Positions 7,810-14,869 of a stretch of 37,610 nt of DNA are shown here, piece by piece. The DNA lies in contig JAFYAH010000034.1 in NCBI GenBank assembly GCA_017540825.1, forward strand, positions 1 through 37,610, written 5' to 3'. The notes below the pieces were generated by a model that searched no databases, had not been told where the DNA came from, and saw only the letters and a list, made by a program, of their open reading frames with translations. Position numbers and translations under genes: made by a program. Numbering within the stretch: position 1 is the stretch's first letter; every line of letters begins with the position of its first letter. Source of the DNA: Candidatus Methanomethylophilaceae archaeon (GTDB taxonomy: Archaea; Thermoplasmatota; Thermoplasmata; Methanomassiliicoccales; Methanomethylophilaceae).

Positions 7810-9492
7810 ATGAGCAGCAAGAACATAGGAATCCTGATTGCGGTCGCAGCCGCGATCGTGATCATCGCTGCCGCGGCCTTCTTCATGAGCAACGGAGGGA
7901 ACGGCGGGAACGGCGGCGACGACAAAGAGGTGACCCCTGTCGCGAAGATCCTCATAGAGGACCAGGACGGGGTCTACTTCTGGACCCAGGGCTCCGGGAG
8001 CACCATCGCCGACTGCCTCGGCAGCGCCTCCCCCGGCGTCACCGTCACCATGACCGACAGCAGCTTCGGCAAGTACGTCGGCGCCATCAACGGGCTGGCG
8101 GCCGACGGGAACAGCTACTGGGCCATATACTCCTACAAGGACGGGGCATGGAAGATGTCCGACCTCGGCGCATCGTCCATGAAGACCAAGGAGAACCCCG
8201 TCGTGGGATTCTTCTACGTGACCACCGAGTCAGCCGAGCCCTACGGCGTCGTAGCCGGAGGGCCTGGAAAGGTCACCGTGCCCGCCGTCTCCAGCGCGAA
8301 GGTCTGGGACGGCAGGACCGACGGGACCATATTCTGCATCCAGGGCATGTCCGGCATGTACTTCTACATCAGCGACGCCACCGGCACGACCATGACCGAG
8401 AGGTTCAAGGCCGCGACCACCGCATACGGCGTCCCCTTCGAGGAGAGCAAGCGCGGCGGCATCAGCAGCTTGTTCGGGAAGGGCAGCGTCCCCAAGACCG
8501 ACTCCGAGGGCAACCCCATGACCGATCCCGAGACCGGCAGCACCGTCTACAACTACTGGGCCCAGTTCGGACTTGTCCGCGGCGTATGGGACTACATGAG
8601 CACCGGGCTGGCCAGCACCAAGGCCGACGACTACTCCCAGATGGCCATCGTCTACGGCGACGGAGGCATGGGGTCCGCTTTCGGCCTCACCGCTCCCGTC
8701 TATCCTGTCGAGGGCAGGGCAGTCGCGACCATCCTCGTCGAGGACCAGAACGGAGTCCGCTTCTGGGCCGAGGGGTCCGGAGAGACCATCGCCGACTGCC
8801 TCGCCGGCGCCTCCCCCGGGGTGACCTTCACCATGACCGACAGCAGCTTCGGCAAGTACGTCAGCGCCATCAACGGGCTGGCTGCCGACGGGAACAGCTA
8901 CTGGTGCATATATTCGTACAAGGGCGGGGACTGGATCATGTCCGACCTGGGGGTCTCCTCCATGAAGACCAGGGAGAACCCTGTCGTGGGATTCTTCTAC
9001 GTCACCGCCGAGAGCGTCGAGCCCTACGGGATCGTGGCCGGCGGGCCCGACAAGGTCGACGTCCCCTCCATCTCCAGCGCGAAGGTCTGGGACGGCAAGA
9101 CCGACGGGACCATATTCTGCATCCAGAGCATGTCCGGGCTGTACTTCTACATCAACGACAACACCGGGCCCCTGATGTCCGACAGGTTCAGGGCAGCCAC
9201 CACCGCCTACGGCGTCCCCTTCGACGAGAGCAGCTACGGCATAAGCAGCCTGTTCGGCATCGCCAGCGCCGTCAAGACCGACTCCGAGGGCAACCCCATG
9301 ACCGATCCCGAGACCGGATACACCGTCTACAACTACTGGGCCCAGTTCGGCCTCAAGGACGGCGCATGGAGCTACATGGACACCACCCTCCCCAACACCA
9401 ACGCCGCCGACTTCGCCCAGATGGCCATAGTCTACGGCGACGGAGGGATGGGATCCGCCTCAGGGCTGACCGCCCCGGTATACGTGGGCTGA
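7810..9492 (+). CDS. Membrane-anchored protein with duplicated DUF4430-like modules
   Basis: The 560-residue protein starts with one N-terminal hydrophobic helix (IGILIAVAAAIVIIAAAAFF, residues 6-25), then a Gly/Asn-rich spacer, so it is probably anchored and faces outward. The rest is a tandem duplication: residues about 44-300 and 304-560 are very similar in protein and DNA. Each half contains two DUF4430-like domains, a fold related to the cobalamin-cradling domain of transcobalamin/intrinsic factor. The first has NGLAADGNSYWAIYSY and the second STVYNYWAQFGL. It is the first gene of an importer operon, followed after 4 bases by the binding protein. I infer that it captures or presents a ligand at the cell surface. 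It ends in TGA. Confidence 0.8.
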   Translation: MSSKNIGILIAVAAAIVIIAAAAFFMSNGGNGGNGGDDKEVTPVAKILIEDQDGVYFWTQGSGSTIADCLGSASPGVTVTMTDSSFGKYVGAINGLAADGNSYWAIYSYKDGAWKMSDLGASSMKTKENPVVGFFYVTTESAEPYGVVAGGPGKVTVPAVSSAKVWDGRTDGTIFCIQGMSGMYFYISDATGTTMTERFKAATTAYGVPFEESKRGGISSLFGKGSVPKTDSEGNPMTDPETGSTVYNYWAQFGLVRGVWDYMSTGLASTKADDYSQMAIVYGDGGMGSAFGLTAPVYPVEGRAVATILVEDQNGVRFWAEGSGETIADCLAGASPGVTFTMTDSSFGKYVSAINGLAADGNSYWCIYSYKGGDWIMSDLGVSSMKTRENPVVGFFYVTAESVEPYGIVAGGPDKVDVPSISSAKVWDGKTDGTIFCIQSMSGLYFYINDNTGPLMSDRFRAATTAYGVPFDESSYGISSLFGIASAVKTDSEGNPMTDPETGYTVYNYWAQFGLKDGAWSYMDTTLPNTNAADFAQMAIVYGDGGMGSASGLTAPVYVG

Positions 9493-9496
9493 ACGC

Positions 9497-10903
9497 ATGT
9501 CCAAACTCTTTTCCAAACCCCTTCCCTCCCGCCGCTCGGACAGGTCCGTCCTCAGGGCAGCCCTCACGATAGGCCTCATACTGGCGGGAGCGGTCATCGC
9601 CGTGGCCGCCACCCCTTCCCACGAGCCTCCCAGGGCGCAGGGCATCATCCTAGATTTCGGAGGGTACGACATTTTTTATCAGGGGATGGAGGATGGAGGC
9701 TCCGACCCGGTCGAGTCCCTCGCGGACCTCTGCGACTACTACTCCATGACCGCCGTCTGGGACGGGGGCTCCCTGAGCAGGGTCGTGAAGGACTCCGAGG
9801 AGTACCCCTCGCCCGGAGACGGTTCCGAATGGAGGCTGTACGTCAACGACAAGGGGACCGTCGGATGGAAGGCGTTCGCGGGCGATCCGAAGAGCGTGCG
9901 CCTGGACGGATACGCCGCGGTGTGCTGGGGGCTCTGCGGCGAAGGCGAGGTCCCGACTCCGGGCGTGGACGCCACGGGGACCTGCTTCTACGGCTACGGG
10001 CAGAGCTACCGCATAGTGTCGCTGGCTCCGTCCTGCACCGAGACGATATGCGCCACCGGGGCCGGAGACGTCATAGTCGGGGCAGACGAGTTCAGCAACT
10101 ACCCAGGATACATCAGGGACAGGCTGGCGACCGGCCAGATAGTGTCGGTCGGCGGATACACCAACCCCAGCTACGAGACCGTGGCCAGGCTCAACCCCGA
10201 CATCGTGATAGGCGTGGGCGACCAGTCGGTGCACCGCTCCGTGATGGACAAGCTCAGGGCCCACGGCGTCCACTGCCTCGCGACGTTCCCCGGGGACAGC
10301 GTGAAGACGATCCTCGACAACACGTACATGGTCGGGGCCGCCATGAACTACCAGCTGAAGGCCGTCCAGACCATCTCGCAGATAGAGGATGCCCTGGACG
10401 CCCTCTCCTCGCAGCTGTCGGAGGGGCCTTCGGAAGCCTCCAAGGTGATGATCTCGCTGTCCGCCTCCAAGTCGCCATGGGTGGCCGGCGGGACGACGTA
10501 CGCTTCCGACGTCATCACCAGGGCCTTGTGCGTCAACATTTATTCCCAGGAGTCCGGCTGGGCGATGGTCAACAGCGAGACCGTGCCTGCCCGCGACCCC
10601 GACTACATAATCGTCGTCTCCTCCGACTACGGGAACACCGACCGGGAGTACGAGGACATGGTCTCCTCGCTCTCCGCGGAGTGGAGGAGCACGGCGGCTT
10701 TCGAGAACGGCAGCATCTACCTTCTCACGGAAGGGGCCACCGACCTGGCGTCGCGCCCCTCCACCCGCATAGCGCAGTTCACCGAACTGATGTGCAGGAT
10801 GGTCCAGCCGGGCGTCTTCGACGACGTCGACCTGCCGCTCCATATCGGCGACGACTACAGGGACTATCTCACCATCACGAAGGAGCTGGGGTTCGAGACA
10901 TGA
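9497..10903 (+). CDS. DUF4430-like domain fused to a BtuF/FepB-type substrate-binding protein
   Basis: The 468-residue protein has an N-terminal signal or anchor helix (LRAALTIGLILAGAVIAVAA, about residues 20-39). A DUF4430-like domain follows (about 48-150, containing WRLYVNDKGTVGWKAF). The rest (from RIVSLAPSCTETI to the end) is a class III periplasmic-binding-protein fold as in BtuF and siderophore-binding proteins: GADEFSNYPGYI, ETVARLNPDIVIG, and GGTTYASDVIT are typical. It should bind the ligand outside the membrane and deliver it to the permease encoded next. Its stop overlaps the next start by ATGA, so translation is probably coupled. Substrate unproven; corrinoid or iron chelate are the likely classes. 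Confidence 0.85.
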   Translation: MSKLFSKPLPSRRSDRSVLRAALTIGLILAGAVIAVAATPSHEPPRAQGIILDFGGYDIFYQGMEDGGSDPVESLADLCDYYSMTAVWDGGSLSRVVKDSEEYPSPGDGSEWRLYVNDKGTVGWKAFAGDPKSVRLDGYAAVCWGLCGEGEVPTPGVDATGTCFYGYGQSYRIVSLAPSCTETICATGAGDVIVGADEFSNYPGYIRDRLATGQIVSVGGYTNPSYETVARLNPDIVIGVGDQSVHRSVMDKLRAHGVHCLATFPGDSVKTILDNTYMVGAAMNYQLKAVQTISQIEDALDALSSQLSEGPSEASKVMISLSASKSPWVAGGTTYASDVITRALCVNIYSQESGWAMVNSETVPARDPDYIIVVSSDYGNTDREYEDMVSSLSAEWRSTAAFENGSIYLLTEGATDLASRPSTRIAQFTELMCRMVQPGVFDDVDLPLHIGDDYRDYLTITKELGFET

Positions 10904-13900
10904 CCGGCATGAGAAAAGCTTGGATTTGGGCCGTCTTGATGGCGGTCGCCGTGGCCGTCCTTCTTTCGGCGGCGCTTCCTTCGGGCGCCCAGGACGACAG
11001 GGCACACGTGCTTATTGACAAAGGGAACGGCGACGTCTTCTGGTCTCCCGCTTCAGGGGGGACGATAGGGGAGGCGCTGTCCTCGGCGGCCGCGTCCAGC
11101 GGTCTGGACATATCGTTCCAGGGAGGAGCGGTCTCGGTCGACGGGGTCACCGATGCGACGGTCGGATCCCAGACCGTGGGATGGAGGCTGTACGAGTGGG
11201 ACGGCGTATGGAGGGACGTGACCTCCGAGAAGGACGTCGGCTCTCCCCTCGTCTCCTCGATAGCCCTCGGCCTGTACCCCGCCGGGTTCGTCCCCACCGA
11301 GACGCCGGCGCACAAGGGGTCCTGGACGCAGGTCCGCGGGAACTCCTCCATGGACGGGACGATGCCCGCTGACCTGGACTCCGGCGAGGCGATGTCCGTC
11401 GAGGTCGCCTGGTCCAGAGGGTCCAACGACTACGTCACGGGGACGGTCCTGGTGGCGCGCGGGAACGCCTACCCGTTCTTCAACGGAGGGTACATGAACA
11501 CCCAGAGCACCCCCGCGCTCTACTGCGTGGACTGGCTCACCGGCGAGACCGAGTGGGTGATGGAGGTCCCCGCAGGGGTCGGGTACGAGACAATGACAGG
11601 CTGCATCGCCGGCGGGTACTACTACCTCCCCACCAGCTACGGCTATATCTACAGGGTCCCGCTCGAGGGCCCCGGGGAGGACTCCCTCTACGTGCAGCTG
11701 TCCTCGAGGCTCCTGACCGGCCCCGACAAGGCCCCTGCGGTCACATATGTGGGGTACAGGGAGGCTGGGTCGGACGAATACATGGAAGCGCCCGTCGAGG
11801 CCCTGGACACGAAGGCCTTTGACGTTCCGGTCAAGGTCGGAAGCGTCTACGACATCGTCATCTCCGACGGGGAGAGGACGTACAGGGGCAGCATGGCCGT
11901 GAACACCGCGGACGCCCTCGGCGTCAAGATATCCGGTTCCACGGCGGAGGACAAGGCCCTGATAGCCGACTTCTCTTCGCGCGTCACCCATTCCTACTCG
12001 GACGTAGTCAAGGCGTACGTCTCCAAGGCCAGGTCCCCGGACATGGAGGGCCGCACTATATACAACACCGGCCCCGCCTCCCTGACGTTCTGCGACGGAG
12101 CGATCTTCTTCGGCACCAGCGCAGGGTACGTCTACGCCATGGACATGGACCTGAACGTGCTCTGGAAGGCCGACGTGGCAGGGCAGAGCTACTTCGACGC
12201 CGTCATGGTGGACGACGGGAGGGTCTTCTCCGGAACGTACAGCGGGAAGCTATACGCCCTGGACTCGTCCACCGGCGAAATAGTGTCCTATGTCAAGGCC
12301 GCCGACTACAAGTCAGCCGTCCACGGGGACGGAGGAAGGGTCAGCACCCCCGTGAAGGTGGGCGACGTCCTGTTCTTCTCCACATCGGACGGGCTGGGGA
12401 TGAGCAGCACCCAGGGCGGGTTCGCCGCATACTCATTCAAGGACGACAGGTTCGAGGAGCTCTTCTCCGAGTCCTCCTACGGCCAGGCGTCCACGTTCAT
12501 GACCCCCGTTTCCTCGGAAGGCTTCGAGGGCGTCTACTTCGCCACGGACTACGGCCTGATGAGGCTGTCCACGGGCATGAAGCTTGAGATCCTCAACGAG
12601 AGCCTGACGGGCATCCGCGCCTCCCCCGTGCTGGCGAACGGGACCGACCTCCTGATGCAGGACTACACCTACGCCAAGAACGGCGTCGGAGGGGCCATGT
12701 ACAGGGTGTCCCTGGACGGGAAGGTCCTCGCCGAGTTCCAGAGGCCGTCCGAGGTCGACCAGTGGTGCATGAGCCCCATGGTGGCCGTGGGGGACCGCAT
12801 ATGCGCAGGGACCGACAACGGGTTCTTCATCGTCAAGGGGGAGATGCCGTCCGTGTCGGAGAACGAGGAGGGCGGAGGGATGAATCCAGTCTGGATCGGC
12901 GTCGGCGCATTCGTCGCGGCCATCGCGGCCCTTCTGATCGCAGCGTACGTGCTGGCTAGGAGGCGCGGCATGTCCCTGGGGAAGTACCTGGCGTCCCTGA
13001 GCGGCTTCCGCAACGACGCCATGTCCAAGACGAAGGCCAACAAGCGCCGTCTTATGTTCGTCCTCGCGACGGGCATTGTCCTGATGCTGGTGATGTTCGT
13101 CTGCTGCCTGGCCTACGGCCCTTCGATGAGCATGTCCCCCTGGGAGGCCATATCGGACCTGGCCTCCGCCGTGGGCAAGGGCGGGAACGGCCTAACCTTG
13201 CCGGAGCTGGTGGTCTACGAGTCCCGCCTTCCCCGCGCCCTCGCGGCCATAGGGGTGGGCGTGGGCCTCGCGATAGCAGGCTGCGTCTACCAGGCGGTAA
13301 TCCGCAACCCGATGGTCGACCCGTACATCATGGGGGTGTCCTCCGGGGCGGGGACCTTCGCCGTGGCCGGGATCGCCAGCGGCTTCACGTTCTTCGGGCT
13401 CCTGGCCAACTCGGACTACATGATCCCGGTGCTCGCGGTCGTGGGCGGGCTCCTCGCCTTCGGTCTGACCATGCTCCTGGCCTCCAAGGCCGGAAGCACC
13501 CCCACCGGCTTCGTCCTCGCGGGGGTGGTCATCGGGCTGGCATTCACGTCGGTACAGACCGTGATCCTCACCACGTCGGACTCCGACAAGCTCCACAACG
13601 CGGTCTCGTGGCTGTACGGGAGCTTCACCAGCGTGGACTGGGGGACGGTATGGCTGATCATGGTCCCGTCGATATTCATATCGCTGGCCCTGTTCATATG
13701 GGCGAAGGAGCTGAACCTGGTCCTGCTCGGGGACGACAACGCCCAGCAGATGGGCCTGAACGTGAAGAGGTTCGACGCCTTCATGCTGATAATGGCCTCT
13801 GTCCTGACTTCCGTCTGCGTCGCATTCGTCGGAATAATCGGGTTCGTGGGCCTGGTAGTGCCTCACGTGTGCCGCATGATACTCGGCGGCGACCACAGGC

Positions 13901-14073
13901 TGGTCCTCCCCGCCTCCATGGTCCTCGGGGCAGCGCTGATGCTCCTCGCCGACCTGCTGGCCAGGATGATAATGATACCCTTGGAGCTCCCGGTAGGCGC
14001 CATAACCACCGTGGTGGGGGTCCCGCTTTTCGCCTATCTTCTTGTAAAGAGGGGGAAGATGTACAATGGATGA
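10900..14073 (+). CDS. Fusion of DUF4430-like domain, PQQ-type beta-propeller and FecCD/BtuC permease
   Basis: This is a single uninterrupted frame of 1057 residues. In order: signal/anchor helix (WIWAVLMAVAVAVLLSAAL, about 7-25); DUF4430-like domain (about 32-110, with VGWRLYEWDGVWRDV); PQQ/YVTN-like beta-propeller (about 140-655, repeated blades such as IFFGTSAGYVYAMDMDLNVLWKAD and VFSGTYSGKLYALDSSTGEI); a transmembrane helix (about 663-685) followed by ARRR; then a complete FecCD permease (about 708-1057) with SRLPRALAAIGVGVGLAIAG, NPMVDPYIMGVSSGA and GFVGLVVPHVCRMILG. The permease part has about 350 residues, the normal full length. Internal ATGs at 12970 and 13021 lack a ribosome site. 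The positive charge after the helix fits a cytoplasmic link into the permease. It overlaps the ATPase gene by 8 bases. Confidence 0.88.
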   Translation: MTGMRKAWIWAVLMAVAVAVLLSAALPSGAQDDRAHVLIDKGNGDVFWSPASGGTIGEALSSAAASSGLDISFQGGAVSVDGVTDATVGSQTVGWRLYEWDGVWRDVTSEKDVGSPLVSSIALGLYPAGFVPTETPAHKGSWTQVRGNSSMDGTMPADLDSGEAMSVEVAWSRGSNDYVTGTVLVARGNAYPFFNGGYMNTQSTPALYCVDWLTGETEWVMEVPAGVGYETMTGCIAGGYYYLPTSYGYIYRVPLEGPGEDSLYVQLSSRLLTGPDKAPAVTYVGYREAGSDEYMEAPVEALDTKAFDVPVKVGSVYDIVISDGERTYRGSMAVNTADALGVKISGSTAEDKALIADFSSRVTHSYSDVVKAYVSKARSPDMEGRTIYNTGPASLTFCDGAIFFGTSAGYVYAMDMDLNVLWKADVAGQSYFDAVMVDDGRVFSGTYSGKLYALDSSTGEIVSYVKAADYKSAVHGDGGRVSTPVKVGDVLFFSTSDGLGMSSTQGGFAAYSFKDDRFEELFSESSYGQASTFMTPVSSEGFEGVYFATDYGLMRLSTGMKLEILNESLTGIRASPVLANGTDLLMQDYTYAKNGVGGAMYRVSLDGKVLAEFQRPSEVDQWCMSPMVAVGDRICAGTDNGFFIVKGEMPSVSENEEGGGMNPVWIGVGAFVAAIAALLIAAYVLARRRGMSLGKYLASLSGFRNDAMSKTKANKRRLMFVLATGIVLMLVMFVCCLAYGPSMSMSPWEAISDLASAVGKGGNGLTLPELVVYESRLPRALAAIGVGVGLAIAGCVYQAVIRNPMVDPYIMGVSSGAGTFAVAGIASGFTFFGLLANSDYMIPVLAVVGGLLAFGLTMLLASKAGSTPTGFVLAGVVIGLAFTSVQTVILTTSDSDKLHNAVSWLYGSFTSVDWGTVWLIMVPSIFISLALFIWAKELNLVLLGDDNAQQMGLNVKRFDAFMLIMASVLTSVCVAFVGIIGFVGLVVPHVCRMILGGDHRLVLPASMVLGAALMLLADLLARMIMIPLELPVGAITTVVGVPLFAYLLVKRGKMYNG

Positions 14074-14869
14074 AGCGCCGCTCTTGGAGCTCAGGAATCT
14101 GAACAAGGTCTACGACGACGGGTTCCACGCCGTCCGCGACGTGTCCTTCAGCCTGCCGGCGGGGAAGCTGGTGGGGCTGATCGGACCGAACGGGTGCGGG
14201 AAGTCCACCATGATGAGGTGCATCAACAAGATGCATCCTATCACGTCCGGGGACGTCCTGATAGACGGTAGGTCGGTATTGGACCAGAGCGTCGCGGAGA
14301 TAGCCAGGCAGGTCGCCAACGTCCCCGCGGAGCTGAAGAACAGCTTCGGCCTGACGGTGTACGAGACGGTCATGCTGGGGCGCTACCCCCACCTAAGGAA
14401 CCTGTGGTGGGAGACCGAGGAGGACGAGACCGAGGTCGTGGAGGCCATGAGGAAGTTCGGCGTACAGCACCTACAGGACAGGCAGATCAACATGCTCTCC
14501 TCGGGAGAGATGCAGAGGGTCCTGATAGCCAAGGCTTACGTCCAGAACCCCAGGCTGATGCTCGTCGACGAGCCCACCTCCCATCTGGACATGAAGTACA
14601 AGTTGAACGTCATGGAGTACCTCCGCGCGATGGTCCGCCAGAACATGACCGCCCTGGTTGCGGAGCACGACATCTCCCTGATGGCCAGGTACTGCGACCT
14701 GTGCGTGATTATGAAGAAAGGGGAGCTGGTCGCCATCGGGAACCCCAGGGAGGTCATCACCGAGGATCTAGTCCGGGACGTGTACGACGTGGTGGCCAAC
14801 GTGGGGTTGGACAAGGACGGGGAGATCTACGTCCTCCCTAAGAGGTTCGTGGGGGACTACGAGCTCTGA
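14066..14869 (+). CDS. ABC transporter ATPase of the BtuD/FepC type
   Basis: This 267-residue ATPase powers the importer. It has Walker A GPNGCGKST (about 41-49), the Q-loop region with PAELKNSF, the signature LSSGEMQRV in place of LSGGQ, Walker B LMLVDEPTS followed by HLDMK, and the H-loop histidine in VAEHD. It starts inside the end of the permease fusion gene (8-base overlap), which fits translational coupling and a 1:1 transporter complex. The family imports vitamin B12, haem or ferric siderophores. The length and order of motifs are normal. It is the last gene of the operon and ends in TGA 44 bases before trm5. Confidence 0.93.
   Translation: MDEAPLLELRNLNKVYDDGFHAVRDVSFSLPAGKLVGLIGPNGCGKSTMMRCINKMHPITSGDVLIDGRSVLDQSVAEIARQVANVPAELKNSFGLTVYETVMLGRYPHLRNLWWETEEDETEVVEAMRKFGVQHLQDRQINMLSSGEMQRVLIAKAYVQNPRLMLVDEPTSHLDMKYKLNVMEYLRAMVRQNMTALVAEHDISLMARYCDLCVIMKKGELVAIGNPREVITEDLVRDVYDVVANVGLDKDGEIYVLPKRFVGDYEL

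Follow-up and report, generated by a model that had tools for sequence, protein, structure and literature searches.

Type II ABC importers are usually described as systems of a free or membrane-anchored binding protein and separate permease and ATPase subunits, and the permeases of the FecCD family are as a rule stand-alone subunits. In the genome of a Candidatus Methanomethylophilaceae archaeon (GenBank assembly GCA_017540825.1) one gene appears to encode an extracellular beta-propeller and a permease of this family as a single chain. This locus raises the questions of whether such a chain is genuine, which cargo the importer would carry and what a propeller would contribute to a permease.

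Architecture of the Fusion Protein

The gene lies at positions 10900–14073 of the forward strand of the window, that is, the whole stretch of 37,610 nucleotides that was analyzed (contig JAFYAH010000034.1), and forms a single frame of 1057 codons free of stops, as an earlier sequence-only reading had claimed. It was annotated as a 1057-aa fusion of a propeller receptor and a BtuC-type permease on the basis of the open frame, its domains and its retention in relatives. Its start codon shares an ATGA (10900) with the stop codon of the BtuF-type gene upstream, and its last bases, from 14066 on, are also the first of the ATPase gene. The encoded chain comprises, in this order, a signal helix, a DUF4430-type domain, a BamB/PQQ-type beta-propeller, a transmembrane (TM) helix, a linker and a FecCD permease.

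The signal helix (residues 3–24, positions 10906–10971) is hydrophobic and was modeled by AF2 as a helix of low confidence. It precedes a DUF4430-type (transcobalamin C-terminal-like) domain (residues ~31–135, 10990–11304), assigned by a profile-profile match to the DUF4430 domains of the operon, and the extracellular propeller (residues ~140–650, 11317–12849). In the AF2 model of the extracellular part (mean pLDDT 68) an alpha/beta N-domain is succeeded by a beta-propeller and then by the TM helix. The PQQ-type propeller proposed before was borne out by both repeat and fold: residues 409–498 match Pfam PQQ_2 (E 1e-7), Foldseek aligned the propeller with BamB (E 2e-14, TM score ~0.7 by target) and BamB/PQQ propellers are the best PDB matches of the propeller profile (1e-16). 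An insert within the propeller (11701–12039, bounds approximate), recognized in the alignment of homologues, is confined to the window's own subclade.

The membrane-spanning helix (residues 663–688, 12886–12963), seen as a helix by AF2, is followed by a cytosolic linker (12964–13080) that charge analysis showed to be positive. All three features described earlier, namely a signal helix, a TM helix and a linker of net positive charge, are present in the window's fusion. Both the TM helix, detected by hydropathy, and the positive linker (median 40 aa) occur in 54/54 distinct fused homologues, with a net charge of +7.5 in the linker versus −1.5 outside; the proposed topology, with the propeller outside and the linker inside, is therefore consistent with the whole set. 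The permease domain (residues 728–1050, 13081–14049) is complete, as claimed, covering 311/311 positions of the Pfam FecCD model (E 3.7e-84), and its assignment also draws on its placement within its own genome and on its PDB relatives FhuB, HmuU and BtuC. The AF2 model of the full-length fusion, built from a five-row alignment, had a mean pLDDT of 53. Being joined to a propeller receptor, this permease is not a stand-alone FecCD/BtuC subunit; its operon is that of a type II ABC importer, with the binding protein at 9497–10903 and the ATPase at 14066–14869, an arrangement kept in relatives.

The 2.37-Mb genome (G000) carries 29 FecCD-family permease genes. Adjoining FecCD permeases are a 1111-aa exported protein with three tandem BtuF-type binding domains (L049:4641–7976, contig C11) and a frame of 1315 aa that matches BtuF-type, dockerin and EF-hand domains (L046:4775–8722, contig C15), and near paired FecCD permeases there is a 781-aa chain of NifH-type and nitrogenase-component-1-type domains (L048:7324–9669, contig C58). 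In the window, positions 126–2327 encode an adhesin-type surface protein with leucine-rich repeats. An Rfam scan of the window detected one tRNA only and no riboswitch.

Conservation of the Fusion

The search for the same domain order in related archaeal genomes, suggested by the sequence-only reading, located the propeller-permease fusion in ~60 species-level Methanomethylophilaceae genomes among 147 genomes of the order. These include the single-contig assemblies G073, G035, G031, G072, G076, G078 and G037, and full-length fusions are found in Ca. Methanomethylophilaceae RGIG6046 (79% identity), Ca. Methanomethylophilus sp. UBA78, G073 and G035. Separate genes in all close relatives had been named as the outcome that would speak against the proposal, and close relatives are fused. 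Beyond the order, a scan of 300 genomes from the class and 390 from the phylum turned up no fused match. In Ca. Methanomethylophilus sp. 1R26 (L013:7956–11214) the propeller contains a frameshift and the fusion is otherwise intact; the frame is unbroken in its near relative G035.

The fusion is thus real and conserved. That an assembly or sequencing error joined two genes is a reading to which practically no weight is given: split forms do exist in paralogous operons, but the recurrence of the same fusion in ~60 independent assemblies, some of them single-contig, refutes it.

BtuC proteins are abundant and diverse in Methanomassiliicoccales and were linked to rumen methane phenotypes in the main survey of the order (PMC10804542), which concerns the same order and permease family as this locus; the words "fusion", "fused" and "propeller" are absent from its text. 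A full-text search combining Methanomethylophil* with propeller, or FecCD with propeller and fusion, found nothing within the literature covered, and the fusion is apparently an undescribed variant of the BtuFCD importer.

DUF4430-Type Domains of the Operon

The operon comprises the accessory DUF4430 protein (in some operons), a BtuF with an N-domain, the propeller-permease fusion and the ATPase. In the window all of these genes are on the forward strand. The accessory protein (7810–9492) is exported and has two DUF4430-type repeats (~7927–8259 and ~8722–9054) that match Pfam DUF4430 under the cut-off (E 2e-4), and its orthologue L067:11941–12786 matches above it (E 4.9e-6). The BtuF-type substrate-binding protein (9497–10903; Peripla_BP_2, E 1.1e-30) bears an extra N-terminal DUF4430-type domain at ~9614–9985, and the BtuD-type ATPase (14066–14869) matches ABC_tran (E 1.7e-32).

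The DUF4430-like domain attributed to the fusion was upheld indirectly. A direct assignment to Pfam DUF4430 (PF14478, the C-terminal domain of transcobalamin and intrinsic factor) was discarded, with 0/32 homologues above the cut-off, the fusion's own domain being too divergent for Pfam recognition. It is homologous to the domain of the accessory protein (hhalign Prob 95.6, pairwise E 1.3e-8) and to the additional N-terminal domain of BtuF (Prob 98); the accessory-protein domain in turn matches DUF4430 in 4/9 members, with one operon protein above the cut-off. Membership is reached in this way through related domains of the operon, and profile comparison places DUF4430-type modules on three operon proteins. 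PDB searches with the N-domains of the fusion and of BtuF gave no significant match. Among the best PDB matches of the accessory-protein profile are intrinsic factor and transcobalamin, at non-significant values (E 0.17–0.32), which offer a hint only. In the alignment, the fusions L051, L052, L053 and L088 are ~1200 aa long and apparently carry two additional domains of the DUF4430 type after the propeller and before the TM helix.

Corrinoid Context of the Importer

The cargo class, which the sequence-only reading had missed and which is new in this analysis, is most likely corrinoid, as indicated by the operon context. The locus probably encodes a corrinoid (B12/cobinamide) importer of the BtuFCD type, with an extracellular receptor tethered covalently to its permease, because the operon of relatives runs into corrinoid salvage genes and propeller-free orthologues share the same operon position. 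In relatives it continues with genes for a CobD-type aminotransferase, CbiB, CbiZ, CobS and a CobY-like transferase (L069; partly L074), and in L088 the cobD-cbiB-cbiZ-cobS-cobY set is oriented divergently. Linkage to corrinoid salvage was found at the orthologous loci L069, L074, L088, L091–L100 and others, the window itself being without it. Of the 62 genomes that hold both the fused gene and CbiZ, 18 have the two within 10 kb of each other, against a crude expectation of ~1.5; these genomes are related and not independent. In older lineages the operon has the same layout, with permease and BtuF both in plain form (L093–L096, L100, L105, L106); next come L091 and L097, which combine a plain permease with an N-domain BtuF. 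The propeller-free orthologues with cbiZ are basal in the permease tree.

The known BtuFCD systems (type II ABC importer; E. coli BtuC, PDB 1l7v; archaeal CbiZ salvage operons) have the same operon of binding protein, FecCD-family permease and ATPase, and the orthologous loci are linked to cobD-cbiB-cbiZ-cobS-cobY. They differ in that the permease described here bears an N-terminal extracellular DUF4430 domain and propeller on an extra TM helix, and its binding protein an extra DUF4430-type domain.

Homology alone gives a mixed picture: the BtuF-like domain matches binding proteins for iron, for heme and for B12 alike, and FhuB and HmuU come ahead of BtuC among the PDB relatives of the permease. 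Both observations would suit another cargo (an iron-siderophore, heme or other metal chelate), which the propeller would capture much like XusB in Bacteroides. This is regarded as improbable in view of the conserved corrinoid-salvage context and of the best NCBIfam models, which are BtuC for the permease (214.6 vs a cut-off of 461) and a corrinoid ABC transporter ATPase for the ATPase (218 vs 537), both under cut-off; the curated BtuC, BtuD and BtuF scores were not reached. The window's operon has no cbi genes, and the five salvage genes of its own genome are on contig C11 without an adjoining importer. The substrate may have changed in the window's subclade, this copy being detached from salvage genes.

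Fused, Split, Lost and Relocated Propellers

In the permease tree the plain cbiZ-linked permeases are at the base, followed by the sister clades A and B. Clade A is fused (support 99/97), and nested in it are stand-alone second permeases (support 100/99), each encoded in one operon with a fused gene and downstream of it. Judged by its position in the tree, this stand-alone permease is a duplicate of the fused permease without its propeller. With the propeller lost from the duplicate, these lineages likely assemble a heterodimer carrying one propeller, and the window's permease probably pairs with itself, giving a homodimer with two propellers.

Clade B consists mostly of split forms, in which a TM-anchored propeller is encoded by its own gene immediately upstream of that for the permease, and includes the fused members L087 and L057. 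L057 is nested in the tree next to L054, a split form, and at the junction the two differ by a stop that L057 has lost. The distribution of the fused state in the tree needs at least four changes, and fused permeases form a single clade in no bootstrap tree. Paralogous operons also have the split form, with a membrane-anchored propeller gene between btuF and btuC. Going by these sequences, the propeller is also present as independent fusions to BtuC. Read-through of TGA in split operons, where the frames are often in phase, was rejected: the permease start, usually ATG, lies within a few codons of the stop and sometimes immediately after it, so ordinary coupled genes explain them.

In another family (G008) a 1045-aa chain unites a propeller, two TM helices, a DUF4430-type domain and BtuF (L099:481–3618) within a cobD-cbiB-cbiZ-cobS-cobY operon. 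Fused to the permease in some genomes and to BtuF in L099, the propeller thus shifts between the permease and the binding protein of one system; whether as a separate TM-anchored gene, a BtuC fusion or a BtuF fusion, it is always found within a btuFCD operon. The split form in paralogous operons, the fusion to BtuF and the propeller loss from duplicated permeases had all escaped the sequence-only reading. The L099 chain shows apparent PKD domains after the propeller (judged by eye), and the adjoining btuC is interrupted by an in-frame TGA, through either a MAG error or decay.

The duplicated, propeller-free permeases of one clade speak for a further reading, in which the fused gene would also yield a free permease by internal initiation or proteolysis, giving transporters with one or no propeller and a fusion that mainly co-produces its parts. 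The internal ATGs had been said to lack ribosome sites, which is wrong for two of them: the in-frame ATGs at 12880–12882 and 12970–12972 (forward strand) have a GGAGG 8 and 6 nt upstream, respectively, a good spacing that likewise favors this reading. As candidate starts, these two Shine-Dalgarno-like sites were nevertheless rejected, since neither is conserved in the sequence scan and sites of this kind show no enrichment, occurring in 8 of 61 genes where synonymous shuffles would give 10.9. Little credence is consequently given to a free permease.

Possible Role of the Propeller

The sequence-only reading proposed a tethered receptor, gate or second binding platform. A receptor or platform is consistent with all findings, and binding, gating and hand-over are steps that we infer. 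The propeller is most likely a tethered module for corrinoid capture and hand-over, a functional analogue of BtuG of Bacteroides. According to this model, the propeller and the DUF4430 domain would project outside the single membrane and would bind corrinoids or dock loaded BtuF; the tethered module would raise the ligand concentration locally at the BtuC entrance, and BtuF, with the same DUF4430-type module, would deliver the ligand for ATP-driven import by BtuC2D2. More tentatively, the permease may own a high-affinity receptor, so that ligand is passed to the gate, directly or via BtuF, in one chain, some lineages having asymmetric heterodimers with the receptor on one half.

BtuG is a B12-binding surface propeller that acts as a lid, and BtuG1 is fused to a BtuH domain (PMC10404256). 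The BtuG/BtuH systems (PMC10404256, PMC6143338, PMC8941943) share with the archaeal operons an extracellular beta-propeller associated with corrinoid transport and modules that are mixed and fused between proteins. BtuG, however, is a lipoprotein with seven blades that forms a lid on BtuB, a TonB-dependent transporter of the outer membrane, whereas the archaeal propeller is of the BamB/PQQ type and is part of the chain of a cytoplasmic-membrane ABC permease with a TM anchor. BtuG was not among the propeller matches listed by Foldseek or the PDB profile search, in which BamB/PQQ propellers were best, and homology to BtuG is unsupported by sequence or top structural matches.

The same structural matches are compatible with a less probable role, that of a BamB-like docking scaffold for BtuF, the accessory DUF4430 protein or surface-layer proteins, the propeller being a tether or lid and no ligand receptor. 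BamB is a protein-protein scaffold and provides the closest structures, BtuF is retained in the operons seen in full, and the fusion of the propeller to BtuF itself in L099 is what would be expected if both must stay together. The match to BamB is not decisive for function, however, because to our knowledge all PQQ-type propellers resemble BamB, and docking leaves the repetition of DUF4430 modules on each component unexplained.

Implications for Gut Methanogens

An extracellular receptor built into the permease departs from the usual separate-subunit plan of type II ABC importers, and its natural separate, fused and lost variants are material for testing the benefit of a tethered receptor in such a transporter. 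If corrinoid capture by the propeller holds true, a BtuG-like strategy would have evolved separately at an archaeal cytoplasmic membrane. Methane production in the gut methanogens of this group runs on corrinoid methyltransferases, and with this design the importer is probably able to bring its own bait for a scarce vitamin, which points to a possible way, parallel to that of Bacteroides BtuG, for these archaea to compete for B12-type cofactors.
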